From NCBI RefSeq assembly GCF_000745185.1, contig NZ_JQNJ01000001.1, positions 2,503,501 to 2,567,500 on the forward strand: a DNA stretch of 64,000 nucleotides, given 5' to 3'. Under the pieces are notes generated by a model. The model was not told the origin of the DNA, did not search any database, and worked only from the letters and a program-made list of their open reading frames with translations. A program made the position numbers and the translations under genes. Below, piece by piece: positions 2,877 to 23,381 of this stretch; position 1 is the first letter of the stretch; each line of letters starts with the position of its first letter. This DNA comes from Muricauda sp. MAR_2010_75. Its GTDB lineage: Bacteria; Bacteroidota; Bacteroidia; Flavobacteriales; Flavobacteriaceae.

Positions 2877-4043
2877 TCAGATTGCTAGTTTAAGATAATC
2901 ATTGGAAAGACCCCAATAAACAATTGTTGCAAATTGTTCTTTTAAAAATGCTTTATTTACATCATTATTATCTTGAAAAGAATCATGCAAATCATTGGCG
3001 GTAATCGGATGATTGTCATGAAACAAAACCAACAATTGATATATATGGCGCAATGATATTACCATGTCAGATGTAAAGGAACGAAGATAAAAAGAGTTCG
3101 AAACTTTTTCAATAAAAAAGTCCTCTTGGTTGAACTTCACCTTTTTTCTCATGAACGATAATTTTCTTTCTTCGATATGTTCCGATAAGTTAGATAAACC
3201 GAATCTATCAATATAAATTTCCTCATTTTTCCAATTAAATTTTGGGCTGTCAAAAAGAGAAAATTTCTTTAGACGAATTAGGTGAGTTAAAATATATTCT
3301 TTGCCTGAATTAAGACTATAAAGACCATTAGAATTAACTCTGAGCAAGTCGAAAAATTCTGCATAACCCAAAAACTCGTGGCTACAATTATTAAAACTAG
3401 AATCTAAAAACATTCTTTCTTTTAAGACAACATGTGTCATCGATTCGATCTCTGTATCTATTTCTAAAATAGAAATACCCTTCAAACATTTATAAAATTC
3501 CCAATTACATTCATCAAAGCAAAAGTTATCTTCATTTGTTAAGACAAACTCCCAATCTTTGCTCTTTTTAAATATGTATTTTATCTTGTCAGAATTCTTG
3601 TAAATGGCAAAGAAGCCAGATAAATATTCTTCACGTACAGAAATTATCTCATATTTTCTAAGTTTTTCGCTATCTATAAACTTCTCAATGTTTCCCAGAA
3701 TTATATCTAAATCACAATAACCCCAAAAATCAAAGTCTAAAATAAAATCTTCAAAAATCAAACCATATGCTGGCTTGAAATCACATAATTTATATGGTTC
3801 AGAAACATCAATCTCTAACTTTAACTTCTTACTGGCCAGCTGATTAAAATCCTTCAAATTGAACCTAACAAATTTAATATTTGGGATATTTGGAAGTGTC
3901 TTTGGTATAAGGATATTTGTGAAGATTATAAATAAAAAATTATTATTATGTGAGGCTGATTTTAAGAAATAGTGAAAATAATCAGGGAATTTTCTTCCAA
4001 AATAGGGAATTAAAAATGCAATCTTTCTGGACACTGTTTTCAA
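2877..4043 (-). CDS. DUF6625-like glycosyltransferase with possible PqqD-like C-terminal domain
   Basis: This 388-residue protein starts KIAFLIPYFGRKFPDYFHYFL and has PYKLCDFKPAYG and a DLD motif in FWGYCDLDIILGN. That pattern fits the DUF6625/glycosyltransferase-like family, with DLD as the likely metal/nucleotide-sugar site. The last 80 residues or so (from about 305) read FYLRSFTSDMVISLRHIYQLLVL, then ANDLHDSF and YWGLSNDYL. The order of strands and helices resembles a PqqD-like winged helix (RiPP recognition element). The glycosyltransferase call rests on family resemblance and the C-terminal domain is an inference. It is the last gene of the leftward run, 35 bases after the APS kinase. 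A role in glycosylating the lanthipeptide is plausible but unproven. Confidence 0.55.
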   Translation of the reverse strand: MKTVSRKIAFLIPYFGRKFPDYFHYFLKSASHNNNFLFIIFTNILIPKTLPNIPNIKFVRFNLKDFNQLASKKLKLEIDVSEPYKLCDFKPAYGLIFEDFILDFDFWGYCDLDIILGNIEKFIDSEKLRKYEIISVREEYLSGFFAIYKNSDKIKYIFKKSKDWEFVLTNEDNFCFDECNWEFYKCLKGISILEIDTEIESMTHVVLKERMFLDSSFNNCSHEFLGYAEFFDLLRVNSNGLYSLNSGKEYILTHLIRLKKFSLFDSPKFNWKNEEIYIDRFGLSNLSEHIEERKLSFMRKKVKFNQEDFFIEKVSNSFYLRSFTSDMVISLRHIYQLLVLFHDNHPITANDLHDSFQDNNDVNKAFLKEQFATIVYWGLSNDYLKLAI

Positions 4044-4078
4044 AAAATATATATTAAAAAACGGAACTAATAAATCAC

Positions 4079-4693
4079 TTATATGTCCATTTTAATCTTC
4101 CAAATAAGCTTTTTAAATATTAAATCTGTCGCTTTCTCTACTGTAAAGCTTTCGTTTATTTCAAGAAATGGATTTACAGGAGGTTCGTAAGGGGCAGAAA
4201 TTCCGGTAAAGTCATTAATTTTACCTTGTCTCGCTTTTTTGAATAATCCTTTAGCGTCTCTTTCTTCGCAGACTTTCAAACTAGTATTTACATATATTTC
4301 CACAAAATCCACATCCCCTATTAGGTTTTTTATTTTCCTTCTTTCCATTAAATATGGAGCTACAAAGGCCGCAAGCACAACTACTCCAGCTTCAATGAAT
4401 AATTTTGAAATTTCTGAGACAATTCTTAAGTTCTCTGCCCTGTCAGCAGGGCTGAAGGACAGGTTTTTATTTATTCCACTTCTCAAATTGTCCCCATCAA
4501 GAATAAAAGTTTTGATATTCTCAGAAAATAGTTTCTGTTCTAACGCATTAGCAAGAGTTGATTTACCAGAACAAGGAAGACCTGTGAACAACACCATAAT
4601 TGATTTGTGACCATTGAACATCATTCTATCATTTCTTGAAATTTTGAAATGTTCCGGAAAAATGTTATTTCTTATTTCTTTATGTTCTACCAT
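4079..4693 (-). CDS. cysC: Adenylylsulfate (APS) kinase
   Basis: This 204-residue kinase phosphorylates APS with ATP to make PAPS, the sulfate donor for sulfotransferases. Walker A is GLPCSGKST (about residues 38-46). DGDNLRSGIN and the FSPADRAENLRIVSEI helix are APS-kinase hallmarks, and the later APYEPPVNP segment is also typical of CysC. No ATP sulfurylase genes (cysD/cysN) are in the cluster, so APS must come from elsewhere. It lies between a sulfotransferase gene (96 bases upstream) and a glycosyltransferase-like gene, which argues for local PAPS supply to the cluster rather than general sulfate assimilation. Confidence 0.9.
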   Translation of the reverse strand: MVEHKEIRNNIFPEHFKISRNDRMMFNGHKSIMVLFTGLPCSGKSTLANALEQKLFSENIKTFILDGDNLRSGINKNLSFSPADRAENLRIVSEISKLFIEAGVVVLAAFVAPYLMERRKIKNLIGDVDFVEIYVNTSLKVCEERDAKGLFKKARQGKINDFTGISAPYEPPVNPFLEINESFTVEKATDLIFKKLIWKIKMDI

Positions 4694-4789
4694 AAATTAA
4701 CATTTATACTCTCCTTACTATGTTGAAGAAATAATATGATTCAGACAACAAATTGCCGTTCTTTATTTTCCACAGAGATTCTACTATTC

Positions 4790-5578
4790 TCATGTACTCT
4801 TAGTAATTACTTTTTCCTGCATTAATCTATACTTCTCAAAAGCATCACTTTTCTTTATTTTTTTTTCTATAGATGGAGTCTCCCTTTTCCCAAGAATTTT
4901 TGGATTTATATATTTTTTTTGAACCACTTGATTATCAACTTCTTTAATATTCAGGAAGTCCAATAGTTTCCCTAACTCTTGTTCATTTTGTATTGAGGTA
5001 TTTTCGAAAAACGCATAATTCTTATATTTTTCCGAATACTCAAGCATTATCTTACTGATATTTTGATATTCTTCAAGAAAATCTTCTAGTTTATGGCCAT
5101 ACTCCCACCATTTATAGTGATTAACCGAAACCCATTGATTTATAGGGTTGCGGAACAAAAATATGAACTTGGAATTTTCAAAAATCTCTCTCAGGCTCAC
5201 TAAAGTAGCAATGTCTCTAATTCTAATATCTTTAAAACCGAATCGTACTATACCATTTGGAGCTTTCAAATTATAAATTATAGCCTCAATTAATTTTTTC
5301 CTTAGTTCGGATAAGTTCCCCATGGACATCATAAATGGATAATGGGGATATAAGTGGTTTTTAGATCTAAGGCATTGATGAAAGATTTTATTATCCTCTA
5401 TTACAGTTGAATCTTGTGAAAATTTATCAACTCTTTTTATAATGCACAATATATCATCAATGATATATTGTTGTTCTCCCCAAATACAAACTTCATTGCT
5501 TGAGTTGAGAATGCGTTGCATAGCTGTTGAAGAACACCTACCACCTACACCGAAAATAAAGATATGCTTCTCCATCAT
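4790..5578 (-). CDS. PAPS-dependent sulfotransferase 1
   Basis: This 262-residue protein starts HIFIFGVGGRCSSTAMQRIL, a variant of the sulfotransferase 5'-phosphosulfate-binding loop. Mid-protein KFIFLFRNPINQWVSV matches the 3'-phosphate-binding motif, with the conserved R and following S. Such enzymes move sulfate from PAPS to a hydroxyl of a peptide tyrosine, sugar or lipid. The APS kinase gene follows directly. The acceptor cannot be read from sequence; in this context I infer the lanthipeptide or a sugar attached to it. A few AT-rich bases separate it from the receptor gene upstream. Confidence 0.75.
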   Translation of the reverse strand: MMEKHIFIFGVGGRCSSTAMQRILNSSNEVCIWGEQQYIIDDILCIIKRVDKFSQDSTVIEDNKIFHQCLRSKNHLYPHYPFMMSMGNLSELRKKLIEAIIYNLKAPNGIVRFGFKDIRIRDIATLVSLREIFENSKFIFLFRNPINQWVSVNHYKWWEYGHKLEDFLEEYQNISKIMLEYSEKYKNYAFFENTSIQNEQELGKLLDFLNIKEVDNQVVQKKYINPKILGKRETPSIEKKIKKSDAFEKYRLMQEKVITKST

Positions 5579-5733: not shown

Positions 5734-8466
5734 TTATCTTCTTTTGTCAAAATTATTTATTTTATATGTAAAGCTTAACATAAAGTATCTCTGAAGTATT
5801 AAACTTTCTCTATTTTCAATGAAATTTTGAGTAACAGTTCTTGAAATATTGTTGTTTTGCCTTAACAAATCATATACAGTAAATTTTAGGTTTCCATTTC
5901 CCTTAAACATATTCATTCCAAAACTTAAATTCCAAAGCAAAGATGTTTTTTCAATATTACCTTGGATAGACCCATTATAGACATAACTTAAATCATTCCC
6001 TATTACAACTCCTTTTGGCCAATATGAAGTTACTCTTAGTTCTAAACTATGAAGAGTGAAATCGGTTTTCTGTCTATCGTTATAAGTAGTAGTATTATAT
6101 GTCAGTCGATAAGAGGGACTAACATCAAAAAAATCTTTGTAGCTATATTGAAGTCCTAATCTCGGAACAAATCGAAACGTACTAGTTTTAAACTCAATAT
6201 CATTATTTAAAGTAACATCATTTCTAAACACAAATCCGCCACCAGTCGAAATGTTCAAAATGTGAGTACTATCTTTTTTTATCCGCTTATTAATCCCAAA
6301 ACCCCCAAATGTATTAATATTCCCGTCCATATTTACGAAACCTCTATTTCTTATCAAGTTATTGTCTACATCGAGCTTCTCAACAATTTTGTCATCCGAT
6401 ATTTCTGATTGAGCGAATAAGAAAAAATTAGTTTTTGATTTTGAATTGTATCCCGTATAATTAAGCCTAATCACATGATTGTAAAAAGAACTCAACTCAT
6501 TATTGCCCCCCGAAACATTCAAAGGGTTTTTAACGTCTTCAATAGGCTGTAATTCATTGAGAGAAGGTATGGTATTATCTACTCTATAATCTAAAAAAAT
6601 CTTGGATCTTTTATTAATTTGGTATCTAAAAAAACCACCAAAATAAGTTCTACCATTTATTTTTGAATACTCCAATTTTTGGATTGAATCATTATTGCTT
6701 AGCTGAACGTTGATATAGCTCCCATTTATATTAAAACTATATTTGTCTCCTTCATATGTTAAACCAACTTTAGGTTGGACTACATCAGCGTTATAAGAAA
6801 AATAGGAGCTTAGGTCTTGATTTAAGTCTTCAAATTCATTAGTGGTATCGTTGAAATCATTAACTACCCTATTGTTCTTCTGTCTACTAATTAGGTAATT
6901 AAAATCAAAATCAAGAAACAATTTCTTTTTGCCTAATGGTAGCCTATATGATATTCCAAAATTGTAGCTTTCATTTTTGCCATATGACTCTTCTAACTGC
7001 TTAATTTCGATATTGTCCGAAGATGTGGAGAGCTCAGATGAATATCTGGATTTCCCATCATTTTCGATGTAAGAATTTCTTAGGTTAAAACTTAAAAACC
7101 TTCCTTGATTTCCATACCTTTTAATGATTTCTATATTGTTGTTAAAATTTTTTGTTGAAATACTAGAACTATCTACAAGTACACTTTCACTAGTAATCTC
7201 ATTTCCTAAAGAGAATGAAGATTCGTTAGAAAAAGAACTGTTCATAGTTTTATTATAAGTGAATTTTGGTTGGAAGCTTAATCTCAAAGAAGAATCAATA
7301 TTCGTTGAGAATAGCCCAGTAAATCTATGTGAATCTGTCTCACTTAAATAGCCTGATGCCTTATCGGTGAAAAACAAATCATTTTGTAACTGATTTTCCT
7401 GAAAAATTTTGGTTTCATTGTTAGTATTGGCTGAACCAAAAAAATAATCGGTTGAAACTTTCGTATTGTTATTAAATTCATTTGTATAATTTGCCCCCAA
7501 ATTGGTAGACTCTGCAATTCCCTCTCCTGACCCAAAAGCAATATCACCTAGATTAAACCCATCATTATTGTTCCTATTCAATTCTCTCTTATTTCCAATC
7601 ATATCATAGACTTCATCAAATGAAAACCCCGGATTATTTATGTTGTTCTTTCCTAACAGAAGACTAATACGCTCTTTACCGTTAAAGTAATTTCCTATGG
7701 CATTAAATTGATACCTATCATCTGTTCCATATCCCGCTGTAGCCCTCATCATGTGTCCCTTATTTTTGTCTTTTTTAATTGTTACATTGATTGTCTGTTT
7801 ATCGGAACTCCCCTCTTTGCCCGTAAACCTTTCTTTTTCTGTCTTAGTCGAAGTAAGTTCTACCTTATCCACTATCTCCCTAGGAATGTTTTTAGTAGCA
7901 ATTTTTAAGTCATTTCCGAAAAAAGGCATTCCATTTATTAATATTTGGCTAACCACTTGTCCATTCATGGTAATCCCACCTTTTTTATCGATTTCGATTC
8001 CTGGCAATCTCTTTAGCAACTCCTCCAAATTGGCATCAGGACGTGTTTGAAATGAGTCTGCATTAAATTCCAGCGTGTCTTTTTTAACTATTATAGGAAT
8101 CCTATCGCCAAAAACTTTTATCTCATCAAGTTGATTTGCTTGAATTTCCAAATTGATATCCCCCATTTCTATGTTGGGTGTTTTCAATGAAATTTCCTTA
8201 ACAATTGTTTTATATCCAATATAAGTAATGAATAGGTTTATATTTTTCCTATTTGTCGAAAAATCAAGTTGAAACATTCCGTTCGAGTCACTGATTGTAT
8301 ATGCAATTAAGGTACTATCCTTTATTGATTCTACATACACGGTAGACGACTCAAGCGGCTCCTGAGAAACTCTATCCTTTAACTTTCCGGTGATAGAAAA
8401 ATCCTGCGAATAGACTAAACCGCAAACAAATACCAAAAAAATATGAACTATATAACGTTTATGCAT
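5734..8466 (-). CDS. TonB-dependent outer membrane receptor-like protein with carboxypeptidase-like domain
   Basis: This 910-residue protein begins with a signal peptide (MHKRYIVHIFLVFVCGLVYSQ). A carboxypeptidase-regulatory-like domain follows (FSITGKLKDRVSQEPL through about residue 110). Next is a plug-like region with RPDANLEELLKRLPGIEIDKKGGITMNG, then a long beta-barrel rich in aromatic strands. The layout fits the outer-membrane beta-barrel family related to SusC/TonB receptors. It lies 186 bases downstream of a BlaR1-like gene on the same strand, so it probably belongs to the same regulated unit. It may import or sense the peptide or a competitor product, or take part in self-protection; these are inferences. 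Confidence 0.8.
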   Translation of the reverse strand: MHKRYIVHIFLVFVCGLVYSQDFSITGKLKDRVSQEPLESSTVYVESIKDSTLIAYTISDSNGMFQLDFSTNRKNINLFITYIGYKTIVKEISLKTPNIEMGDINLEIQANQLDEIKVFGDRIPIIVKKDTLEFNADSFQTRPDANLEELLKRLPGIEIDKKGGITMNGQVVSQILINGMPFFGNDLKIATKNIPREIVDKVELTSTKTEKERFTGKEGSSDKQTINVTIKKDKNKGHMMRATAGYGTDDRYQFNAIGNYFNGKERISLLLGKNNINNPGFSFDEVYDMIGNKRELNRNNNDGFNLGDIAFGSGEGIAESTNLGANYTNEFNNNTKVSTDYFFGSANTNNETKIFQENQLQNDLFFTDKASGYLSETDSHRFTGLFSTNIDSSLRLSFQPKFTYNKTMNSSFSNESSFSLGNEITSESVLVDSSSISTKNFNNNIEIIKRYGNQGRFLSFNLRNSYIENDGKSRYSSELSTSSDNIEIKQLEESYGKNESYNFGISYRLPLGKKKLFLDFDFNYLISRQKNNRVVNDFNDTTNEFEDLNQDLSSYFSYNADVVQPKVGLTYEGDKYSFNINGSYINVQLSNNDSIQKLEYSKINGRTYFGGFFRYQINKRSKIFLDYRVDNTIPSLNELQPIEDVKNPLNVSGGNNELSSFYNHVIRLNYTGYNSKSKTNFFLFAQSEISDDKIVEKLDVDNNLIRNRGFVNMDGNINTFGGFGINKRIKKDSTHILNISTGGGFVFRNDVTLNNDIEFKTSTFRFVPRLGLQYSYKDFFDVSPSYRLTYNTTTYNDRQKTDFTLHSLELRVTSYWPKGVVIGNDLSYVYNGSIQGNIEKTSLLWNLSFGMNMFKGNGNLKFTVYDLLRQNNNISRTVTQNFIENRESLILQRYFMLSFTYKINNFDKRR

Positions 8467-8652
8467 CTTAAATCTCTTTAAATTAAGTCAAGAAAAGCCA
8501 GCCCATCTTGCAATTAAGAAGACAGAATAATCAAAAAAAAGCCGTAAAGGTTTTAGGAGCTTAGTAAGCGCAAATCACTATTAGGTCTTAGAATCAGAGA
8601 AAGCTTTTTGTTTCATAAAGAAAATTTTGTTATTATAACTTTAATGAATCTT

Positions 8653-9918
8653 CTATTTAAAATCAATCGGTATTGAAAACAAAACATTTACCTTTTCTCC
8701 ATTGTGCTCGGCAGGGATCAACTTGGGTAAAGATGAAATAATATCAAGAGCGGCGTTTTCGAGATTTTTGTCTAAACCTTTAATTTTAATATTTGCAACA
8801 TTTCCCTCAGCCGTAATGGTACACAAAATTTTAACCGTTTTGTCAGGAGATTCACGTTCTTTAATCTCTAAGGATTTAATTCTCTTATTTATATGATTTT
8901 GAAGCATTTCCCCAAAACACAATTTTAAATTATCCGTACCTAAACATGAAGGGAAAATGGGAGGTCTATCAACCAATGCGAAAGGAATTCCATTGATGGT
9001 TGATAAGCCATCCGTGATTAATGTCCTATCGCTTAAAAGCTTAAGACTTTCCTTTTTTAAATCAATACTTGATGAAAAACCCAACATTCCTCCAATAACA
9101 GGAATCAATAGTAAAAACTTCAATTTATTGAAGCTATGCGACCTTTTTCTTTTTAACATAACTATCCTTTTCTTAACAAGAGAATTATTGAAAAATGGAT
9201 TTATGAGAGAAATGTCATGCGTTCTTAAAGCTTGTGCCAACAACAATTTATATTGTTCAATTTGATTAGTTGTAGACACCAGTTCATTGTCCGCAATGTA
9301 TTCATGTAATACTGAAATTCTATTTTGGTATAAATATGAAAAAGGATTGAACCAAAAAAGAATCCTCATTATTTCAAAAAAAAGTAAATCAATCGTGTGT
9401 TTTTGCCTAACATGGACTAGTTCATGTTCCAAAATACTTGTATGGATTTCTTTATTATTAATAATATCACTACTAATAAAAATATAGTTGAAAAAAGAAA
9501 ATGCTGTATTCTTTGTTGGTAATTCTACAAGAATATAATCTCCTAAAAATTCTAACTTTCCCAATTTGATGTAATTCTTGATTTTTCTTATTTTCCCAAA
9601 AAAACAAATTAGTGCGGAAAGTGATCCTAAAGCTAAAATTAATTCGTTCCATGCCAATGGTGTTCCTATACTCACATTTTGAGTCATTCCAATTTCGTTC
9701 ACTTGCATTAAAAAATTGGGGTATAATTCATACCTATCGGGAATTGCAATGTTGAGGTTGGTAAAAGAAGGAAGAATTGGGAAGATTAATGAGATTGCAA
9801 AAGATGAAAGTAGATAAAATCTGTTAAGCTGAAAAAATGTCTCCCTTTTCAGAAGGAAGTCATATATTATCAGAAAAACTGATTGAAAAAATAAAGCTTC
9901 TATTACATATACAATCAT
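8653..9918 (-). CDS. BlaR1/MecR1-like M56 membrane metallopeptidase with TonB-like C-terminus
   Basis: This 421-residue protein has N-terminal membrane helices and an M56 peptidase domain with the zinc motif HELVH in SILEHELVHVRQKH and a downstream EYIADNELV segment. Another hydrophobic segment (about residue 270) follows. The C-terminal part (about 330-421; VKILCTITAEGNVANIKI, PAEHNGEKVNVLFSIPIDF) resembles the TonB C-terminal domain rather than the penicillin-binding sensor of true BlaR1. The family usually senses an outside signal and cleaves a BlaI repressor. Its stop lies 186 bases before the receptor gene, and its start overlaps the blaI-like stop. Confidence 0.8.
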   Translation of the reverse strand: MIVYVIEALFFQSVFLIIYDFLLKRETFFQLNRFYLLSSFAISLIFPILPSFTNLNIAIPDRYELYPNFLMQVNEIGMTQNVSIGTPLAWNELILALGSLSALICFFGKIRKIKNYIKLGKLEFLGDYILVELPTKNTAFSFFNYIFISSDIINNKEIHTSILEHELVHVRQKHTIDLLFFEIMRILFWFNPFSYLYQNRISVLHEYIADNELVSTTNQIEQYKLLLAQALRTHDISLINPFFNNSLVKKRIVMLKRKRSHSFNKLKFLLLIPVIGGMLGFSSSIDLKKESLKLLSDRTLITDGLSTINGIPFALVDRPPIFPSCLGTDNLKLCFGEMLQNHINKRIKSLEIKERESPDKTVKILCTITAEGNVANIKIKGLDKNLENAALDIISSLPKLIPAEHNGEKVNVLFSIPIDFK

Positions 9919-10277
9919 TAGCTTTTCTCTTTAATTTCATTCAACATCAATTCCAAATCATTAACATTCATATCATTTTTCTTCATGAAAAACGAAACCA
10001 TACTTGTGAAGGACCCTTGAAAATAGTTATCTACCAATTTACTTATGGTTTGATTACTATAGTCGTTTTTTTGCATCAAAGGAAAGTATATGTAACCTTT
10101 GCCTCTTTTTTCATGTGAAACAAAACCCTTACTTTCCAAAATTCTAACAACAGTTGATACAGTGTTATAAGCCGGTTTAGGATTCGGAAACTCTTTAATA
10201 ATTGCAGCAACACTCCCTTTCTTTAGTTTCCACAAAACCTGCATAACTTCTTCCTCTGCTCTAGTTAGCTCTTTCAT
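9918..10277 (-). CDS. BlaI/MecI/CopY-family transcriptional repressor
   Basis: This 119-residue winged-helix protein (LTRAEEEVMQVLWKLKKGSVAAII, YNTVSTVVRILESKGFVSHEKRGKGYIYFPL) matches BlaI-family repressors, including the part of the C-terminal helix near SFFMKK where BlaR1 proteases act on staphylococcal homologs. It overlaps the M56 sensor gene start by one base. Two perfect palindromes in its own upstream region are the likely operators, so it should autoregulate. I infer it also controls the receptor and sulfation genes downstream; whether it controls the lan genes cannot be told from the sequence. Confidence 0.85.
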   Translation of the reverse strand: MKELTRAEEEVMQVLWKLKKGSVAAIIKEFPNPKPAYNTVSTVVRILESKGFVSHEKRGKGYIYFPLMQKNDYSNQTISKLVDNYFQGSFTSMVSFFMKKNDMNVNDLELMLNEIKEKS

Positions 10278-10299
10278 GATTAACCTTTCCTTTATAACA

Positions 10300-10345
10300 A
10301 ACTAAATATACAACTAAATATTTAGTTGTAACTAAATATTTAGTT
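10300..10345. promoter_or_regulatory. BlaI-type operator: two palindromes and a half-site
   Basis: CAACTAAATATTTAGTTG (10311-10328) and AACTAAATATTTAGTT (10330-10345) are perfect palindromes whose centres are 18 bases apart. An extra AACTAAATA half-site lies at 10300-10308. They sit 23-68 bases upstream of the blaI-like start. The ACTA...TAGT core resembles operators described for BlaI-family repressors. They lie between the blaI-like gene and the end of the SpaB_C gene, so they should act on the leftward regulatory unit. Confidence 0.7.
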
Positions 10346-10397
10346 TTTTAACATTTGTCGTGGTGTGCATCAGCATATAATTTATTCCTCTTTATTA

Positions 10398-11276: not shown

Positions 11277-11278
11277 TG

Positions 11279-13480: not shown

Positions 13481-13502
13481 ATTCTTATTCTTTGAAAATA
13501 GC

Positions 13503-14756: not shown

Positions 14757-14867
14757 TTGATTACTTTCCTTGAATAAATAATTACTTTAAACGAGGCTGA
14801 TTTGAAAAATCATTGCATTATTTGTCAGATGTAGAAATGTATATACAGTTAGTCAACAAATAAAGAA

Positions 14868-14885: not shown

Positions 14886-14922
14886 CTCATCATCTAACAA
14901 ATTCTTGCATTAAACAACCCAT

Positions 14923-15069: not shown

Positions 15070-15205
15070 GATACTGAATTTAGATTAATACTGTTTTCTC
15101 CATAAATATAGAAAAATATTAAATTTAATGTAAGAAAAAACTTTAATATTTTTAGGATAATATGTTAAATAATAATTTATTTGTGAAAAACACCTTTCTA
15201 TTGGG
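15070..15205. promoter_or_regulatory. Divergent promoter region of the lanthipeptide cluster
   Basis: This 136-base AT-rich stretch separates the precursor gene (leftward) from the GT2 gene (rightward) and must start both transcripts. On the minus strand CTATATTTATGG about 30 bases before the precursor start approximates the flavobacterial TAnnTTTG box. No clear palindrome like the BlaI operators is present, so the BlaI-like protein does not obviously act here. Confidence 0.4.
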
Positions 15206-16306
15206 ATGATGAAACAAGAATCCAACTTATTCAAGCATAAAATTTCCTTTTGTACCGTTTGCATGAACAGATTGGAACCCCTACGAAAAACGTTGCCGAA
15301 AAACATCAAGGATAACCTATCATATGGGAACTTAGAATTTGTAGTACTCAATTACAACTCAAAGGATGACCTTGACAATTGGATAGAGAAGGAAATGTCA
15401 GATTATCTAACTAGTGGTGTTTTAAAATATATAAAAACATCTTCTCCCAAATATTTCTTAAGAAGCCATTCCAAAAACGTTGTCTCGAAAGAAGCTACTG
15501 GAGAAATCATTTGTAATGTAGATGCTGACAATTACATTGGGAAAGGCTTTGCACAATATGTAAACAATTGTTTTCTAAAACGGAAAAATATTTTTTTAGC
15601 TACAGATAGAGCTTCCGTTAGAAAAGATTGTTTGGGAAGGATATGCCTAAAGAAAAAGGATTTCGAAACCATTACCGGATATGATGAATCAATGGAAAAT
15701 TATGGGTTCGAAGATTTGGATCTTAAAAACAGGCTAATATTGTTAGGCAGACAAGTGATTAATATATCCGATGGTAAGTTCTTAAACGCCATTTCACATA
15801 GCGATGACACAAGACTCCAAAACGAACCAAATGCTCACCTTATCAAAGACATATACATAAAATATATAAATCATTATAGTACTGAATTATTATATCTCTT
15901 GACTAATAGGATGTACTATACCGGAATTGTAGTCATACATAGATTGAGTCAATCAAATGACACTCGTGCAATCTTCAAAGAGTTCGAAGATGATAATTTA
16001 CATGATTTGAACAACCCAATTTGGAATCTTGAAAAACTAGAATGGAAAATCGGAAATTGGCAAAAGAGTGGATGCGGTCTTATATTAACAAATAGTTTAG
16101 GGGTTAAACGAATTGGAAAAATCGGTACACCCTCCTTGAATAAAATTGTCAAAGACGAGTACTATAAGTGTCAAGATGAACAATCGTTTCAAAAACTTAT
16201 TATGTTTTTCTCTCAAATCAACAACTGTATCAAAATGTATGAAAATCAAAAAAATAAAATAATTGTCGTTAATAAAACTTTTGGTGAGACGGAATTAGAT
16301 TGGTGA
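15206..16306 (+). CDS. Family 2 glycosyltransferase
   Basis: This 366-residue protein has a GT-A fold start (KISFCTVCMNRLEPLRKTLPKNI), the acidic metal motif in ICNVDADNYIGKGF, and GYDESMENYGFEDLDLKNRL. The last motif is the galactosyltransferase-like acceptor/base region of many family 2 enzymes. It would transfer a sugar from a nucleotide donor. It starts the rightward operon divergent from the precursor, and the next gene follows after 2 bases. The acceptor is unknown; the lanthipeptide is the simplest candidate. Two adjacent ATGs make the exact start uncertain by one codon. Confidence 0.8.
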   Translation: MMKQESNLFKHKISFCTVCMNRLEPLRKTLPKNIKDNLSYGNLEFVVLNYNSKDDLDNWIEKEMSDYLTSGVLKYIKTSSPKYFLRSHSKNVVSKEATGEIICNVDADNYIGKGFAQYVNNCFLKRKNIFLATDRASVRKDCLGRICLKKKDFETITGYDESMENYGFEDLDLKNRLILLGRQVINISDGKFLNAISHSDDTRLQNEPNAHLIKDIYIKYINHYSTELLYLLTNRMYYTGIVVIHRLSQSNDTRAIFKEFEDDNLHDLNNPIWNLEKLEWKIGNWQKSGCGLILTNSLGVKRIGKIGTPSLNKIVKDEYYKCQDEQSFQKLIMFFSQINNCIKMYENQKNKIIVVNKTFGETELDW

Positions 16307-16308
16307 GT

Positions 16309-17157
16309 ATGGAAGTAACTGAGATTGACAAGGACTTTTGCTTGAGTATTTCAATATTTTATTCTCAAGATAGTTGGCACAAATTAATTTCAAAAGGTTT
16401 GATTCCTTTTTATGATAAGCAATTAGGCCCTAACAATTATTTCTATTTGCTAAACAAAAACAGAGGCGACCATATAGCACTTTTTCTCATAATACAAAGA
16501 AGCAAGACCATAGAAGTCGTAAAAGATTGTGACAACCATTTCAAAAAATTTCTTTCCAGCAATCCCTCTTCCATAAATTCTGTTTTCCAAACAGGTTCAA
16601 AAATCTTTTGTGATTTTGAAAATAACACGGTCCATTATGGCCTTTATAATGGGGAAATATACGCTAAGCATATAGCGGTCTATAAAAGAATTTCCAAAAT
16701 TTTGTCATTTTCATTTGAGGAGTATGCTGACATGACTATTGAATACCTTCCAGAAATAGTTCTTGACTTACTTATAAAACTTTATGTTTTTTCCGAAAAG
16801 GATAAGGACGAAGTCTTGAATAATTTTAAGAAAACACTCGCTAGAGAATTTGGAAAGCTGGAAAATAGAAATTTAAGTGTAGTCAAAAAGCACTTACATA
16901 AATTTTATTTGGCCAATAGAAATACAGTAGCTTCCTTAATTGATAAAGAGAGAAAAACAACTAATTTGAAGCGTACACAAAAATACTTGGTTGATATTTT
17001 AGAATTACGAAAAGAGATGAATGTTGATACTGGGTTTATTCTTAATTCTCTCTGCGACTTTTTTGGCTTAGAAAATATTGAAAAAATGAGCCTATTCTAT
17101 TTGATATCAAACTGTGTAATTTCGAAAGAAAAGTTTGATTCTAAACACAATGCCTAA
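16309..17157 (+). CDS. Divergent SpaB_C-like protein (second copy in the cluster)
   Basis: I chose the ATG at 16309, 2 bases after the GT2 stop, giving 282 residues; in-frame TTG and GTG codons lie just upstream. The protein parallels the SpaB_C subunit at 10398-11276 in order. SISIFYSQDSWHKLISKGLIPF aligns with the YYKIFTGEKFADRF start, and YFYLLNKNRGDHIALFLI aligns with the FIRY...HLRLRF motif. TLAREFGKLENRN aligns with TAFGKEFGMSRP, and the C-terminal helical tail also matches. The arginines of the signature and the HMxxNR motif are lost, so elimination activity is doubtful. It may be a pseudo-enzyme, a partner, or a repurposed domain. Confidence 0.5.
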   Translation: MEVTEIDKDFCLSISIFYSQDSWHKLISKGLIPFYDKQLGPNNYFYLLNKNRGDHIALFLIIQRSKTIEVVKDCDNHFKKFLSSNPSSINSVFQTGSKIFCDFENNTVHYGLYNGEIYAKHIAVYKRISKILSFSFEEYADMTIEYLPEIVLDLLIKLYVFSEKDKDEVLNNFKKTLAREFGKLENRNLSVVKKHLHKFYLANRNTVASLIDKERKTTNLKRTQKYLVDILELRKEMNVDTGFILNSLCDFFGLENIEKMSLFYLISNCVISKEKFDSKHNA

Positions 17158-17218: not shown

Positions 17219-18067
17219 ATGAGCACGTCCAACACTTTAGAAGGAATACTGAGTCAATATCGCAATAGTGCCTACAACAATGATTTAGTCTGGATCAACT
17301 TTACGAGAAGGACTGATAAGTTTCCATTCCTTAAAGAGCATAGAGACTTTATTGAAAAAAACAATTTGGGGTTTGGGGACAGGGCATTTCACTACATGTG
17401 GTACTTACTTATTTCTCACTTAGTACTTAAAAATGGACATCCAAAAGTTCTTGAAATTGGTGTATATAAAGGACAAGTCATTTCATTATGGGCCTTAATA
17501 GCTAAATATTTGAATTCTACTATCGATATTGTTGCGGTGTCCCCCTTTACAGGCAACATAAGCAATAACGTTTTTTTAAATAACCCTTTTGTCAATAAAG
17601 TTCGGGGCTATATATCACAGAAATTTATTCAAAATCAAAAAGTAGGTAACTATCATCCCCGACAAGATTACTTTTCAATAATCAGGGAAGTATTTGAACA
17701 CTTTGAGTTGAATTTTGATGAGGTCAATAAAATAAAAGGATACTCGAATAGTGAACCTGTTTTAAAATGTATTAAAGACATGCACTTAGATATAGTTTAC
17801 ATTGATGGTGACCATAGTTATGATGCGGTGGTGAAAGACATTCAAAATTATTCAAGTTTAATAAAGCCTAGTGGATTCCTTGTCATGGATGATGCTTCCT
17901 ATTTTTTACCTGGAAACCAGTTTTGGAAAGGCTATGAAGAAGTATCCAGAGCCTGTGCAATAATCGAAGATTTAGGGTTTACCAACGTTTTAAATGTTGG
18001 TCACAATAGAATTTATCAAAAAGATTTAGTTACTACCAGAAGTATTAATAAAAAGATATTCCTGTAA
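17219..18067 (+). CDS. Class I SAM-dependent methyltransferase (Methyltransf_24-like)
   Basis: This 282-residue protein has the SAM-binding motif KVLEIGVYKGQVISLWA (about residue 75) and a later DIVYIDGDHSYDAVVKDI with LIKPSGFLVMDD. That matches the Methyltransf_24/TylF-like group of sugar and small-molecule O-methyltransferases; the DGDH and DD acids often bind a metal. It follows the SpaB_C-like gene by 61 bases on the same strand. It could methylate the peptide or an attached sugar. Substrate is not readable from sequence. Confidence 0.75.
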   Translation: MSTSNTLEGILSQYRNSAYNNDLVWINFTRRTDKFPFLKEHRDFIEKNNLGFGDRAFHYMWYLLISHLVLKNGHPKVLEIGVYKGQVISLWALIAKYLNSTIDIVAVSPFTGNISNNVFLNNPFVNKVRGYISQKFIQNQKVGNYHPRQDYFSIIREVFEHFELNFDEVNKIKGYSNSEPVLKCIKDMHLDIVYIDGDHSYDAVVKDIQNYSSLIKPSGFLVMDDASYFLPGNQFWKGYEEVSRACAIIEDLGFTNVLNVGHNRIYQKDLVTTRSINKKIFL

Positions 18068-18236
18068 TTCTTCTCATCAAGGCTGCTCATTTATGTTTTC
18101 TTTACTCATGCTTTAAACTTCAGTAATCTTTTTCTACATCCGGGCTACCATAAATTATTTAGCTCAAAAAAAGAAAATAAGGTGCTTTTTGAAATGTGTT
18201 TTTTATTTTTATGTTGTATTTTCTTACTAATATTTG

Positions 18237-20447
18237 ATGTGTTTTTTTAAAAAATTTAACTTTTACAGGCAATTGGACTCAATGGACTGTGGCCCCACTT
18301 GTCTTCGGATGATTGCCAAATATTATGGCAAATCCTTTTCCATTGAATTTCTAAGAAAGAGAACAGGAATTACCAAAGTTGGCGTTTCCCTGGCTGGAAT
18401 TTCGGAAGCAGCTGAAAGTGTAGGTTTTCATTCAATTGGAGCTACAATTGACTACAATACATTAGTAAAAAAAGTTGCCCTTCCTTGTATAATTCATTGG
18501 AGACAAAGACATTTTATTGTTGTTTATCGAATAAAAAAAAACTTAGTATTTGTAGCGGATCCATCACACGGGCTTATGAAATATTCCAAAGATAAATTCA
18601 TTTCTGGTTGGATAGGCAGCAATGCAGATAATAGTAAAGGCCTGGGGTCGGTCTTGATATTGGAACCAACTCCTAAATTCTATTCAGGAAAGGAATCTTC
18701 TGAAAACAGATATAACCTATCTTTCTTATTGTCGTATTTTCGACCCTATCGGAAACAGGTGTTTCAATTATTTCTTGGCCTAATCATAGGCAGCCTTATA
18801 CAATTGATACTACCTTTCTTAACCCAAGCCATTGTTGATCAAGGAATAAGATATCAAGAATTAAACTTTATTTATCTAATTCTAATTGCACAATTAACTC
18901 TATTTATTTCCCAAACAACTGTGGAGGTAGTAAGGGGATGGATTCTTCTTCATATAACAACAAGGGTAAATATTCATTTAATATCCGATTTTTTAGTGAA
19001 ATTGATGAGACTTCCGATAGCCTTTTTTGATTCAAAAAACACGGGAGACATTATACAAAGAATACATGACCATAGAAGAATACAAAACTTTTTGTCAACA
19101 ACCACCATCAATACAATATTTTCAGCTTTTAACATTGTTATTTTCGGGTGGGTCTTATGGTATTATAGTCATCTAATCTTTTCAATTTTTTTTTTGGGGT
19201 CAATGCTTTATATAATCTGGGCACTTATTTTTATGAAAAAACGGGCAGAGCTAGACTACAAAAGATTTGATGAGTCCTCTGATAATCAAAGTAGCCTATT
19301 CCAACTAATTTCGGGCATACAAGAAATAAAACTGAACGGGTCTGAGAGACGTCGTAGATGGGAGTGGGAGGCAATACAAGTTCGATTGTTTGAAAATTCA
19401 ATGAAAAGATTGAAATTATCTCAGACACAAATTACTGGAGGTCGTTTCTTAAATGAGCTTAAAAACATTCTTATTACATTCATCTCAGCTAAATTGGTTA
19501 TTGATGGTGAAATAACATTGGGTATCATGTTATCAGTTCAATACATAATAGGCCAACTTAACCTACCCATTAACAATTTTATAACCTTTGTACAAAATGG
19601 TCAAGATGCGAAAATAAGTCTCGAAAGGCTCTCAGAAATCCATAATGAAAAGGATGAAGTAAGTCCCGAAAACAGTACTCTTCAAATAATACCAGAAGAT
19701 AATACAATAGAGCTAAAGTGCGTGAATTTTAGATATGGCGGAAAATCTTCACCTGCTGTTTTAGAAAATATAGACTTAAAAATTCCAAAAGGAAAAGTTA
19801 CTGCTATTGTTGGCACAAGTGGTAGTGGGAAAACAACACTGTTAAAACTGTTATTAAAATTCTATGTACCTAATGAAGGAGAAATATGTGTAGGCGGGCA
19901 TGATTTAAAGAAAATAAATACCAATGTTTGGAGAAATGCCTGTGGGTCGGTCATGCAAGAAGGTTTTATTTTCAATGATACGATCGCACGAAACATTACC
20001 GAATCTGATTCTGAGGGGGCCATCGATCAAGAAAGACTTAATTATGCTGTAGCCGCTGCAAACATAAAAGAATTTATTGAAAAACAGCCACATGGATACA
20101 ATACCAAAATAGGTATTTCGGGAATGAAAATCAGCGGAGGACAAAAACAACGTATTTTAATTGCCCGTGCAGTTTACAAAAATCCAGATTATATCTTTTT
20201 TGATGAAGCTACCAGTGCACTTGATGCAAGCAACGAAAGGGTCATAATGAAAAATCTTCAAGAATTCTATAAGGGGAAAACTGTAATCATAATTGCTCAC
20301 AGGCTAAGTACTGTTAAAAATGCTGATCAAATTGTTGTTCTGGAAAAAGGAAAAATAGTAGAAAATGGGAACCATACTCAACTAGTTGGTAAAAAAGCAG
20401 TTTATTATTCACTGGTTAAAAACCAATTAGAACTTGGTTCGAACTAA
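18237..20447 (+). CDS. C39 peptidase-containing ABC exporter
   Basis: With the ATG at 18237 the protein has 736 residues; a TTG one codon earlier is an alternative. The N-terminal C39 peptidase shows QLDSMDCGPTCLRMIAKYYGK (catalytic Cys18), the His in PCIIHWRQRHFIVVY and the Asp in FVADPSHG. Membrane helices follow, then an ATPase with Walker A (VGTSGSGKTTLLKL), signature (ISGGQKQRILIA) and Walker B (YIFFDEATSALD). Such exporters cut leaders after GG and export the peptide, which fits the IKGG leader end of the precursor. It pairs with the HlyD-type gene 10 bases on. Confidence 0.93.
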   Translation: MCFFKKFNFYRQLDSMDCGPTCLRMIAKYYGKSFSIEFLRKRTGITKVGVSLAGISEAAESVGFHSIGATIDYNTLVKKVALPCIIHWRQRHFIVVYRIKKNLVFVADPSHGLMKYSKDKFISGWIGSNADNSKGLGSVLILEPTPKFYSGKESSENRYNLSFLLSYFRPYRKQVFQLFLGLIIGSLIQLILPFLTQAIVDQGIRYQELNFIYLILIAQLTLFISQTTVEVVRGWILLHITTRVNIHLISDFLVKLMRLPIAFFDSKNTGDIIQRIHDHRRIQNFLSTTTINTIFSAFNIVIFGWVLWYYSHLIFSIFFLGSMLYIIWALIFMKKRAELDYKRFDESSDNQSSLFQLISGIQEIKLNGSERRRRWEWEAIQVRLFENSMKRLKLSQTQITGGRFLNELKNILITFISAKLVIDGEITLGIMLSVQYIIGQLNLPINNFITFVQNGQDAKISLERLSEIHNEKDEVSPENSTLQIIPEDNTIELKCVNFRYGGKSSPAVLENIDLKIPKGKVTAIVGTSGSGKTTLLKLLLKFYVPNEGEICVGGHDLKKINTNVWRNACGSVMQEGFIFNDTIARNITESDSEGAIDQERLNYAVAAANIKEFIEKQPHGYNTKIGISGMKISGGQKQRILIARAVYKNPDYIFFDEATSALDASNERVIMKNLQEFYKGKTVIIIAHRLSTVKNADQIVVLEKGKIVENGNHTQLVGKKAVYYSLVKNQLELGSN

Positions 20448-20457: not shown

Positions 20458-21768
20458 ATGTTAAAAGAAAAAAATGAACTAGAGAATAAAGACCTTTTGA
20501 TTGACCGGTCAGATGAGGTTAATCAAATTCTTGGTAAACCCCCGAACTGGATAATCAAGTGGGGAATTACAATTGTATTCATTGTTTTAATGTTTCTAAT
20601 TATTTTAATCAATCTCATTAGTTACAAAGAAACCATAAATAGCCCTGTTGAATTAAATATTAGTAAGTCTATTAGCTATTTAAGGAAAAAAACCAATGAG
20701 AAAATAGAACACATACTGGTAAAGAATGGTCAATTCGTCAAGGAAGGAGAAATACTTGCCGTTATGGAAAATAACGCCAACAACAAAGATATAGAACTAA
20801 TTCAAAACAAGTTAAACAGCATCCTTGATTCAGGCTTTTTAAATCATTACTCAGTCCAGACTCAATTTCCTTTAAACGTTAGATTAGGAGGAATGAATAC
20901 CCCCTATCGTGATTTTGTTTCAAAATATCAGCAGTACTTAGAGGCTAGTTTTATGTCCCCAAAAAAAACTTTAATTAACGAGAGAATTAAACGAAGTCGA
21001 ACCAGGCTGGCATTTTTAAAAAATAAAAGACTAATCATAGAGGAGGAAAAAACTCAAGTTGCCAAATCTTACTATTTGGAGCAAAAGAAGTCTCTAATTA
21101 CAAATCACGGTAGAATTCATGAATTCGAACAAGCATTGACCAAGTATTTAGAACGCAAGAACAGGACAGACAATATTAAAGATTCGATTAGCCTACTTGA
21201 AATGGAAATTGATTTCATGAATGACTTCATATTACCAGAGACAACACCAACATTTCTTCCAAAAAAGGGTCTTTACTCCAGTCTATTTGAACTTAAAAGT
21301 AAAATTGAAGAATGGGAGTCTAAATATACTGTCAAGAGCCCAATTTCAGGTAAAGTATTGTATTCTTACCCTCAAGCCGTATTCAATGATCAATCGATAA
21401 ATGATACAATCTTCGTCATTATCCCCAATGAATTAAAAAGTCTTGAGGCACAACTAAGAGCAAAATCAAACCATCTAAAAGAAGTCAAAGAGAATTCATT
21501 AATCTTATTAAAATTCCAACAACATCCATTCAAGCATTTGGATGAGGTTCGAGCTAAAATTTCTTCGATAGAAAAATATACTCATAATGAGGAAACAAAC
21601 TGTAAGCTATCTTTTGATTCAAATGTAGTAGCCTTAATGTTTGATGAAAAATTTGATCTTAAGGAAAATATTGTTGGCGAGGGAACCATTGTAATAAGAG
21701 AAACAAATTTATGGGACAATCTGTTTTCTCAAATATTTGAATCAGTAAATAAATTACCAGAAGACTAG
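20458..21768 (+). CDS. HlyD-family membrane fusion/adaptor protein
   Basis: This 436-residue protein has one N-terminal membrane helix (about residues 38-60, WGITIVFIVLMFLIILINLI). Lipoyl/barrel-like halves follow (VKNGQFVKEGEILAVM and SPISGKVLYSYPQAV), separated by a coiled-coil region rich in Lys/Glu. This is the periplasmic adaptor that links a C39 ABC exporter to an outer membrane channel; no TolC gene is in the window. It is the last gene of the rightward operon and converges on the second sulfotransferase gene. Confidence 0.88.
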   Translation: MLKEKNELENKDLLIDRSDEVNQILGKPPNWIIKWGITIVFIVLMFLIILINLISYKETINSPVELNISKSISYLRKKTNEKIEHILVKNGQFVKEGEILAVMENNANNKDIELIQNKLNSILDSGFLNHYSVQTQFPLNVRLGGMNTPYRDFVSKYQQYLEASFMSPKKTLINERIKRSRTRLAFLKNKRLIIEEEKTQVAKSYYLEQKKSLITNHGRIHEFEQALTKYLERKNRTDNIKDSISLLEMEIDFMNDFILPETTPTFLPKKGLYSSLFELKSKIEEWESKYTVKSPISGKVLYSYPQAVFNDQSINDTIFVIIPNELKSLEAQLRAKSNHLKEVKENSLILLKFQQHPFKHLDEVRAKISSIEKYTHNEETNCKLSFDSNVVALMFDEKFDLKENIVGEGTIVIRETNLWDNLFSQIFESVNKLPED

Positions 21769-21805
21769 GCCCTAATTATTACATTTTAACTGTAACACTC
21801 TCAAA

Positions 21806-22615
21806 TCAGAAAAAGTATCCGTATTTATCTATGATCAGTCTTTCCTTTTCTTTTACCAATAATACTGTATTATTATCATAATACTTTTTATATTGCTCCC
21901 TTATTGAAGTGTTAGTAGGCTTTTGATTTGCATCTAGAACTTTTTTCATTTCGGCCTGCTTATAACCTAATATATCACTATTCAACAATAAGTCTTTTTG
22001 AATGTGTTCAGTTCTTATCACGAAATTCAAGAAGTTATTTTCTTTGTCGTGTTTGAAGGCCGATTGAAAATTCCCGATTGTATTGATTTTGTTTGCTTTG
22101 TAAGTAAAAAGTTTTAAATATCTATATGATAAAAGGCCTATTTCAGTCGATATTTCACATTCTTTATAACCCTCTCCAATGGAAATTTCAGGTTTTGAAA
22201 TAACAATCTCTAGCCATGACCGAAAATTGTGCATATTATTAGGATCTGAATAAAGGGTATTCCAAATTTTCATGTTCAATTGAGGGTATTTTTTTGGTAT
22301 AAATTTTTTCTCAATGTCTTTGGGTATACTTTTAAACTCCCTTTTTTGAATCTTAGCGACCGTTTTAAATAATCCGCCTTTCCCCATACAACCAAAAGCC
22401 CATAAAGAAACGTACCAATCCCAAGGGTTTCGAATATTGCCAATCTTAAGTTTGTCGTCAAAATTTCCAATTAGGCCTGGATGAATTGAATCATATGTGT
22501 TATGAACCCCCTTAAGAACATAATTATCCTTAGCAAGTGAAATAAGTATATCCTTTGTATAGGAACTACCTGTCTTTTGTAATTCAAAATAAATGAATTT
22601 CTCAGCAATCAACAT
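21806..22615 (-). CDS. PAPS-dependent sulfotransferase 2
   Basis: This 269-residue protein starts KFIYFELQKTGSSYTKDIL, a match to the phosphosulfate-binding loop (K-T-G-S-S) of sulfotransferase-2-like enzymes. IGNIRNPWDWYVSLWAF is the 3'-phosphate-binding motif. The C-terminus (KERLIIDKYGYFF) is also family-like. It shares little with the first sulfotransferase, so the two may have different acceptors. It is convergent with the exporter operon and 31 bases downstream of the FkbM gene on the same strand. The AT-rich composition matches the cluster. Confidence 0.75.
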   Translation of the reverse strand: MLIAEKFIYFELQKTGSSYTKDILISLAKDNYVLKGVHNTYDSIHPGLIGNFDDKLKIGNIRNPWDWYVSLWAFGCMGKGGLFKTVAKIQKREFKSIPKDIEKKFIPKKYPQLNMKIWNTLYSDPNNMHNFRSWLEIVISKPEISIGEGYKECEISTEIGLLSYRYLKLFTYKANKINTIGNFQSAFKHDKENNFLNFVIRTEHIQKDLLLNSDILGYKQAEMKKVLDANQKPTNTSIREQYKKYYDNNTVLLVKEKERLIIDKYGYFF

Positions 22616-22646
22616 TTGATAAAAGGTTTCTAATGTTATATTCCAT

Positions 22647-23381
22647 CTAAAAAACGTTGTGCAGCGATTTTATCGCCAATAAAGTGTTGTCATGGATTTT
22701 TTGAACGACTTCATAACCTATACTGTTAATGTTTAATTTGAACCAATCTGTATAAATTATTTTTTTATTGTCTTCAAGAATAAGCATTGGCTTACATCGA
22801 TTAATCAAGTCAAGGCCTCCTGCTATAGCCTCTTTCTCATATCCCTCAACATCAAGTTGAATAATTGACACATACCTGTTTTCAGGTATAAGATCATCCA
22901 TCCGCCTAATTTCCACATCAATAGTTTTTCCTTTTCCATTATCTTCTTTTAATATCCTACTTGCTCCGCCTAAACGAATTCCTGAATTTGTTTCAATAAG
23001 CATTTTTGATTTTGTATTTGCTTCTCCAAGCCCGTAATTGAACAATTCAACATTTTTTAAATTATTGATTTGAGAGGTAATTTGTGCGCATCGAAAATTT
23101 TCCAAACAGGGTTCAAAAGCCCATATTTTCTTGTCTTTACCGATTGAAGCTGATATCCCGGGAAGAAAGTCTCCAAAAAAGGTGCCAGCGTGAATCACAT
23201 CACCTTCTCCACAATTCTCCCTTATAAACTCAATGGTATCAGGTTCAAATACCTCTCCTCGTAAAATTTTTTGGACCGCAGGCCTCTTTTGAGAGGAAAA
23301 TGGGACAAAATACCAGCCATAACTATTACTTCCCACAAGTCCATACAATATTTCTTTAGATTTATTTATTGATATTGTCAT
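22647..23381 (-). CDS. FkbM-family methyltransferase
   Basis: This 244-residue protein has GDVIHAGTFFGDFLPGISASI (SAM motif I region), WAFEPCLENF and SIIQLDVEGYEKEAIAGGLDLI, the ordered motifs of FkbM methyltransferases, which usually methylate sugar hydroxyls or peptide groups. It heads the short leftward unit with sulfotransferase 2. It could add the final methyl to a cluster product or a cell-surface sugar. Confidence 0.8.
   Translation of the reverse strand: MTISINKSKEILYGLVGSNSYGWYFVPFSSQKRPAVQKILRGEVFEPDTIEFIRENCGEGDVIHAGTFFGDFLPGISASIGKDKKIWAFEPCLENFRCAQITSQINNLKNVELFNYGLGEANTKSKMLIETNSGIRLGGASRILKEDNGKGKTIDVEIRRMDDLIPENRYVSIIQLDVEGYEKEAIAGGLDLINRCKPMLILEDNKKIIYTDWFKLNINSIGYEVVQKIHDNTLLAIKSLHNVF

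Follow-up and report, generated by a model that had tools for sequence, protein, structure and literature searches.

A candidate glycosylated and sulfated class I lanthipeptide cluster on a mobilizable element of a marine flavobacterium, Muricauda sp. MAR_2010_75

A stretch of 64,000 nucleotides from Muricauda sp. MAR_2010_75 (contig NZ_JQNJ01000001.1, positions 2,503,501 to 2,567,500; the window) carries lanthipeptide biosynthesis (lan) genes together with genes for glycosylation, methylation and sulfation. On balance, we favor the reading that this class I lanthipeptide cluster, carried by an integrative mobilizable element, directs the synthesis and export of a lanthipeptide that would be glycosylated, methylated and sulfated. 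The host is a Flagellimonas/Muricauda-type flavobacterium with a genome of 4.42 Mb in a single contig. A sequence-only reading had described an AT-rich block of such genes at 2877-23381. The block is real, with a GC content of ~31% at window positions ~2.4-24 kb vs ~42% around it (base composition), and in Pfam and profile scans every gene named in that reading was in place and matched its expected family.

A class I lanthipeptide gene set

The predicted core of the LanA precursor has 20 residues, including five Ser/Thr, five Cys and two Tyr, with Tyr6 in the context FDTYVED and the second tyrosine at position 16. LanA scores 17.8 bits against the leader model lant_leader_L1a (NF038153; cut-off 22), and its orthologue in Flagellimonas onchidii scores 22.3. 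The genes match what is expected of a class I lanthipeptide cluster: both LanB domains, a LanC with its zinc ligands, and a class I leader followed by a Ser/Thr/Cys core. This supports the lan genes as one coherent class I cluster with predicted lanthionine rings. Its machinery is typical of Bacteroidota class I lanthipeptides, and an LxLxKx5L leader with GG has been reported for Bacteroidota class I precursors (PMC7268733; here and below, published systems are compared as described in the available parts of the cited papers). Ring formation and export of the peptide are predicted because the LanB/LanC and C39-HlyD families are established.

From 15069 downward, the minus strand encodes LanA, LanC, LanB_N, LanB_C, BlaI, an M56 peptidase with a TonB_C domain, a TonB-type receptor, sulfotransferase 1 (ST1), an adenosine 5′-phosphosulfate (APS) kinase and DUF6625; the last three stand in line behind the lan genes with gaps of 35-186 bp. 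The plus strand encodes, from 15206, a family 2 glycosyltransferase (GT2), a 285-aa partner and a TylF-like methyltransferase, all upstream of the C39-ABC exporter and HlyD. Beyond HlyD, sulfotransferase 2 (ST2) and then an FkbM methyltransferase lie on the minus strand. Within each run, neighboring genes overlap or are 2-186 bp apart, and from this spacing two divergent transcription units starting in the LanA/GT2 intergenic region are likely. We take TylF, the match of the plus-strand methyltransferase, to be a sugar O-methyltransferase family.

Table 1. Features of the cluster and its left flank, in window coordinates.
Feature	Position	Strand	Basis
NikA/MobC mobilization protein	313..660	-	relaxase and serine recombinase at and beyond the window's left end (L206)
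DUF6625 glycosyltransferase-like protein	2877..4043	-	PF20330, E 2.4e-51
APS kinase	4079..4693	-	APS_kinase PF01583, E 1e-57
Sulfotransferase 1 (ST1)	4790..5578	-	Sulfotransfer_3 PF13469, E 5.2e-9
TonB-type outer-membrane receptor	5734..8466	-	OMP_b-brl_3 PF14905, CarbopepD_reg_2 PF13715; Plug weak, 19.6 bits
M56 (BlaR1-type) membrane metallopeptidase with TonB_C domain	8653..9918	-	Pfam; HELVH motif
BlaI-type repressor	9918..10277	-	PF03965, E 1.6e-31
Palindrome TTAGTT-N1-2-AACTAA, putative BlaI operator	10322..10335	+	upstream of blaI
LanB C-terminal (elimination) protein, split dehydratase	10398..11276	-	Lant_dehydr_C PF14028, E 5.2e-65
LanB N-terminal (glutamylation) protein, split dehydratase	11279..13510	-	Lant_dehydr_N PF04738, E 2e-130
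LanC cyclase	13503..14756	-	PF05147, E 2.1e-35; WCYG and CHG zinc-ligand motifs present
LanA precursor, 48 aa	14923..15069	-	leader LxLxKx5L and GG, by reading
GT2/GT7C glycosyltransferase	15206..16306	+	Pfam; transcribed divergently from LanA
Partner of GT2, 285 aa, stand-alone divergent relative of the LanB elimination domain	16300..17157	+	family-level Pfam matches
O-methyltransferase	17219..18067	+	Methyltransf_24/TylF match
C39 peptidase ABC exporter	18234..20447	+	Pfam scan
HlyD-type adaptor	20458..21768	+	family scores weak
Sulfotransferase 2 (ST2)	21806..22615	-	Sulfotransfer_2-like (PF03567), 20.2 bits vs cut-off 22
FkbM-family methyltransferase	22647..23381	-	PF05050, TIGR01444

Glycosylation genes that recur in other peptide loci

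The GT2 protein weakly matches chondroitin synthase 3 and beta-1,4-galactosyltransferase. The sequence-only reading had assigned no function to the gene beside it, which can now be placed in a divergent LanB elimination-domain family by Pfam scans of the family's members. Of six members, four match Lant_dehydr_C (PF14028; best 1.1e-7) and two match the thiopeptide pyridine synthase model (TbtD); the window's own protein, taken singly, matches neither. The hhalign comparison of the partner with LanB_C is weak, and homology is visible in the single-member scans. By these family matches, the 285-aa partner belongs with the LanB elimination-domain superfamily.

Recurrence was searched starting from GT2 or the partner, not from the lan genes. 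GT2 homologues (E ≤1e-10) occur at six places in 5 of 378 Flavobacteriaceae genomes, the host included, and the partner family at five places in 4 of the 378, each adjoining GT2. Outside the window, all five GT2 places are RiPP-like (RiPP, ribosomally synthesized and post-translationally modified peptide), L290 by virtue of a GG-leader open reading frame (ORF) alone, and four have an adjacent partner. The F. onchidii locus, found through LanB, adds a sixth place outside the window, with a partner (pair at L121:17822-19775).

These loci have different backbones. L289 (pair 8366-10353) encodes LanC, two class I lanthipeptide precursors above cut-off, a UDP-galactopyranose mutase and a glycosyltransferase, with C39/HlyD ~8 kb from the pair and no LanB in the 20 kb examined. 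L290 (pair 8845-10815) has its GG-leader ORF directly upstream and a PLOD-type glycosyltransferase. L291 (pair 9219-11192) has adjoining C39-HlyD, a UDP-galactopyranose mutase and a GG-leader ORF, and L292 (pair 9336-11290) has adjoining HlyD and two GG-leader ORFs. In the Kordia algicida locus L293 (8430-15092), C39 adjoins the GT2 homologue, a grasp-with-spasm maturase scores 484 bits vs a cut-off of 230, and a 274-aa ORF unmatched by the partner profile occupies the partner's position. The recurrence of the pair with such different backbones suggests a portable glycosylation module. At L292:5992-8040 (genome G228), a C39 exporter homologue is split over three reading frames, possibly a decaying cluster or assembly errors.

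DUF6625 is the second glycosyltransferase-like gene of the block, and the window's protein bears an extra C-terminal domain of ~90 aa. It is present in 5 of 156 other LanB loci (the survey is described below). In four of them the long form lies directly 3′ of LanB (L030:6721-7932, L041:6139-7374, L217:12113-13375 and L224:12546-13763), hinting at more glycosylated lanthipeptides; the L224 copy lies between LanB_C and C39, with two further copies elsewhere in the locus. In L150, DUF6625 is 5.6 kb from LanB. That both the GT2-partner pair and DUF6625 turn up repeatedly in RiPP and lan loci supports tying the glycosylation genes to the peptide.

A PqqD-type RiPP recognition element suspected by eye at the DUF6625 C-terminus did not reach significance against a profile of 30 PqqD sequences: hhalign gave P 0.017-0.018 one way and 0.14 the other, with a probability of 0.3-3%, and four control profiles gave P 0.06-0.7. 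Comparison of this C-terminus with solved structures gave no useful match.

A sister cluster with a different set of decoration genes

F. onchidii carries a sister cluster (L121, on contig 12 of genome G041; also L023) whose core peptide differs at 3 of 20 residues. It has orthologues of LanC, both LanB parts, BlaI, M56, the receptor, GT2, the 285-aa partner, C39 and HlyD. In place of the sulfation genes are gmd and fcl (GDP-fucose) and a STELLO-type protein, along with two more proteins that look glycosyltransferase-like by eye and are without a Pfam match. The glycosyltransferase-like genes and an FkbM-family protein, which does not align with the FkbM of the window, lie beside C39-HlyD and adjoin gmd and fcl. 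The exporter operon ends with a LanC-like protein (L121:393-1358; by eye, no Pfam match). ST1, ST2, the APS kinase, DUF6625 and the TylF-like gene all lack a match in this locus and the sequence flanking it; ST1 alone was searched genome-wide. Conserved co-occurrence of the sulfation genes with this precursor, a check offered by the sequence-only reading, is not supported: nearly the same core is present here without them.

The sister cluster is on a different element, with a tyrosine integrase next to mnmE plus relaxase/NikA genes, whereas the element in the window has a serine recombinase at tRNA-Arg. A second F. onchidii LanB locus contains a 32-aa GT2 remnant beside HlyD (L033:11797-11892).

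The sulfation genes are unusual among LanB loci

The motif regions of ST1 are kept in an alignment of 14 sequences; the family motifs of ST2 are intact by reading, and its motif regions are conserved in the ST2 alignment. The island APS kinase is, judging by its 54% identity to the host's chromosomal cysC, a second copy. The chromosomal gene, at ~1.44 Mb, is followed by CysD-family (PF01507) and CysN-family (GTP_EFTU) genes, and the surrounding polysaccharide region (L187:10339-19395), which encodes a PF13469 protein of its own, may also consume 3′-phosphoadenosine 5′-phosphosulfate (PAPS). Pfam scans found no ATP sulfurylase in the block.

ST1 is rare, with 16 matches among ~5.8 billion proteins; its own cluster has 4 sequences on 13 contigs, and the nearest other matches are 48-52% identical; the metagenomic homologues P0002-P0005 are 46-52% identical. 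The ST2 family is large, with 524 matches. Across 99 relatives, ST1 has a strong match in its own genome only, and the 10 weak matches (19-22 bits) are parts of long proteins. Plasmid searches matched neither the block at the DNA level nor ST1 or ST2 at the protein level, and viral contigs yielded no ST1 relative. No sulfotransferase match by sequence was found among solved structures, which is uninformative either way.

We surveyed LanB loci from three sources: relatives, with LanB in 19 of 99 genomes, gave 20 loci; a sample of Flavobacteriaceae, with LanB in 40 of 395 genomes, gave 40; and from named genomes, where 528 were confirmed, the best 80 were taken. From the 140 loci fetched, 118 were kept after removing duplicates and one without a LanB_N match; they include F. 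onchidii and a fragment from Muricauda sp. CP2A. Of these, 86 are at least 20 kb and 18 are under 15 kb, with flanks up to ~10 kb. A phylum sample (LanB in 36 of 392 genomes) contributed 38 extra loci, 3 of which share some 60-base stretch with the 118. ST1, ST2 and the APS kinase were found in 0 of the 118 and 0 of the 38. A sulfotransferase filter built on two motifs, which recovers 123 of 136 known members of both families and replaced a first filter that recovered 31 of 136, found none among the 1359 genes of 170-600 aa in all these loci; other sulfotransferase families were covered by this filter only. These counts support the sulfation genes being unusual for such clusters. A lone ST1 match in a laxer search (L092, 11.5 bits, E 0.013) proved to be RimM. 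A family with a DUF6734 representative is present in 7 of the 118 loci (among them L128:6992-7870).

Regulator pair, receptor and carrying element

The palindrome preceding blaI has a single exact match in the window, and its single counterpart in L121 (13167-13179), with a spacer one base shorter, is also upstream of blaI; a BlaI operator is plausible. A homologue of the receptor (32% identity over 911 aa) follows LanB_C in Sinomicrobium pectinilyticum (L140).

To the left of the lan genes are a tRNA-Arg, a serine recombinase (Resolvase/Recombinase), a relaxase (PF03432, E 4e-34) and NikA/MobC. In genomes G018 and G005, yqeY is followed by 3.7 and ~5 kb of other sequence, not the lan block, and the next collinear match is at window ~28.7 kb; therefore ~31.6 kb is inserted here or divergent. 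By gene content and alignment, the lan block is cargo of an integrative mobilizable element at tRNA-Arg. A second copy of the tRNA-Arg 3′ end, as the right attachment site, was not found. A DUF6922 and AbiEii-like pair (putative toxin-antitoxin) lies between the mobilization genes and the cluster, at 1038-2151. Genome G017 holds a related recombinase/mobilization segment (L203:780-14895; 82-85% identical) in which a portion of the tRNA-Arg 3′ end is repeated, which suggests an element family that uses the tRNA-Arg site with different cargo.

Proposed pathway and alternative explanations

In the proposed pathway, the split LanB and LanC would dehydrate and cyclize the 20-residue core. GT2 would attach the first sugar, with its elimination-domain-superfamily partner as a possible peptide-recognition subunit, and DUF6625 would extend it; this glycosylation step is proposed because both the GT2-partner pair and DUF6625 recur in RiPP loci. 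The APS kinase would top up PAPS, the two sulfotransferases would sulfate sugar hydroxyls or the two tyrosines, and the TylF-type and FkbM-type enzymes would O-methylate, the sulfation and methylation steps being drawn from gene order, enzyme type and precedent. C39-ABC and HlyD would cleave after GG and export the product, which the TonB-type receptor with M56/BlaI would sense or import, controlling the operon. If all five Ser/Thr close rings, the acceptors left would be Tyr6, Tyr16 or Asn15. Because tyrosine glycosylation has a precedent in cacaoidin (PMC8068269) and tyrosine sulfation in the ssl and ssc clusters, sulfate on a tyrosine and sulfate on the sugar appear about equally likely.

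Several observations weigh against this pathway. The sulfation genes are missing from every other LanB locus surveyed, and F. onchidii keeps nearly the same core and both tyrosines without them. ST2 and FkbM lie past the exporter on the opposite strand and could be separate. On the glycosylation side, L290 is without an exporter in the 20 kb examined, and the GG-leader ORFs of L290-L292 match TIGR04149 only below its curated cut-off. The draft of the near-identical Muricauda sp. CP2A (G044) matches at 100% only at window 1-3478 and 10965-15256 (first 19,990 bases compared), and this coverage neither supports nor opposes the cluster reading. The sequence-only inference that all of the genes act on one peptide is supported for the glycosylation genes, through their recurrence in RiPP and lan loci, and has gained no conserved co-occurrence for the sulfation genes.

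A less likely alternative is that the element carries the sulfotransferases, APS kinase and methyltransferases as separate cargo that acts on a cell-surface polysaccharide, while only the lan genes, perhaps with GT2, make the peptide. It draws on the absence of ST1, ST2 and the APS kinase from the F. onchidii locus with its flanks and from other LanB loci, on the size of the ST2 family, and on the host's chromosomal region where cysC, CysD/CysN-family genes and a PF13469 protein already occur together. The gene order argues the other way, with ST1, APS kinase and DUF6625 in line behind the lan operon and DUF6625 an in-operon companion of LanB elsewhere; Pfam scans of 16 block genes found no polysaccharide polymerase, flippase or priming transferase families, and other lanthipeptide clusters do combine a sulfotransferase with PAPS genes (PMC12135136). 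A separate polysaccharide locus was also what the sequence-only reading had named as its refuting case: GT2 outside LanB loci was always in RiPP-like surroundings, but the host does have the chromosomal polysaccharide region with cysC and PF13469. Very improbable, by comparison, is a lanthipeptide that is plain, or glycosylated at most, with the sulfation genes silent or useless in this strain. Their rarity with these lan genes and the location of the block on a mobile element would fit; against this, the frames are open and of normal length, and the sulfotransferase motifs and APS kinase domain are complete.

Within the favored reading of a decorated lanthipeptide, and counted as part of it, a narrower form has the sulfotransferases acting on Tyr6 and Tyr16, not on the sugar; we regard this form as possible and somewhat doubtful. 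Two tyrosines would pair with two sulfotransferases, sulfotyrosine lanthipeptides are known, each product of the six sulfotransferase clusters reviewed is sulfated on a phenolic hydroxyl (PMC12135136), and methanobactin offers a RiPP sulfated on threonine (PMC3621798). Set against these points, both tyrosines are kept in F. onchidii without ST1, which mildly favors sugar sulfation or an optional modification; the window's enzymes are PF13469 and PF03567-like; and the glycosyltransferases supply an alternative acceptor.

Relation to known systems

The ssl and ssc clusters (Wang et al. 2024, as cited in PMC12135136) are described with sulfotyrosine lanthipeptides and partial or complete PAPS cassettes, which rules out a first sulfated lanthipeptide here. 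The sequence-only statement that no described class I lanthipeptide cluster was known with a PAPS-making kinase and two sulfotransferases needs amending as well: lanthipeptide clusters with a sulfotransferase and PAPS genes have been reported. For another compound a dedicated PAPS cassette raises di-sulfation, and in six reviewed sulfotransferase clusters each product is sulfated on a phenolic hydroxyl (PMC12135136). The window likewise combines sulfotransferases and a PAPS gene, the APS kinase, in a lanthipeptide cluster. It differs from ssl/ssc as described in having a pair of sulfotransferases, the kinase as its sole PAPS gene, glycosyltransferases and methyltransferases, and in lying on a flavobacterial mobile element; the ssl/ssc sulfotransferases group with actinomycete ones (PMC12135136).

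With the Bacteroidota class I lanthipeptides (PMC7268733) the window shares the leader motif, GG, C39, split LanB and LanC. A split LanB is also common to the pinensin type, and a pinensin-like cluster carries genes proposed for product perception and import (PMC10112250); in the window, the TonB-type receptor and BlaI/M56 pair would be the candidates for such a role. Unlike these sets as described, the window has sulfotransferases, an APS kinase, the GT2-partner pair, BlaI/M56 and a mobilizable element.

Methanobactins are RiPPs sulfated on threonine with the sulfotransferase MbnS, and like the window they combine a sulfotransferase with TonB-dependent transporters, genetic mobility elements being common (PMC3621798). 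MbnS, however, is a PF00685 protein, and the window's PF13469 and PF03567-like sulfotransferases stand with lan genes and glycosyltransferases; the MbnB/MbnC families were absent from Pfam scans of the 16 block genes, so the cluster is not of the methanobactin kind.

Cacaoidin is, likewise, a glycosylated lanthipeptide with GT2 enzymes and its sugar on tyrosine, but it is class V, from Streptomyces, with no sulfation named in the source; NAI-112 is another lanthipeptide with a sugar (PMC8068269). Glycocins and Bacteroidales loci similarly place a peptide glycosyltransferase beside RiPP genes with GG leaders (PMC8068269, PMC10352776). The Bacteroidales loci have LanC and peptide S-glycosyltransferase calls without LanB (PMC10352776), whereas the window's GT2 has an elimination-domain-like partner. 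Lasso clusters (PMC4289311) and clusters with the sprH3/sprPT pair (PMC7794033) are further places where sulfotransferases occur, and non-elimination roles for stand-alone LanB elimination-domain relatives have been raised in general terms (PMC7268733). Neither a lanthipeptide with both sugar and sulfate nor a GT2-elimination-domain pair was found in the literature searched, with subscription papers and supplements outside its scope.

As far as we have seen, what is new here is the combination of sulfation with glycosylation genes in this lanthipeptide group, sulfated lanthipeptides as such being known. Sulfate and sugar groups alter solubility, charge and target recognition. More broadly, and with less than even confidence, we propose that flavobacteria may share a portable and partly mobile RiPP-glycosylation module, in which GT2 and a peptide-recognizing partner occur in lanthipeptide and GG-leader loci, swappable fucose, galactofuranose, sulfate and methyl genes diversify one core, and the product in the window would be both glycosylated and sulfated. 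The GT2-partner pair suggests a role besides elimination for stand-alone relatives of the LanB elimination domain. The window and F. onchidii form a natural experiment, with nearly one core and two decoration sets, and this pair makes recognition of a RiPP precursor by a glycosyltransferase testable.

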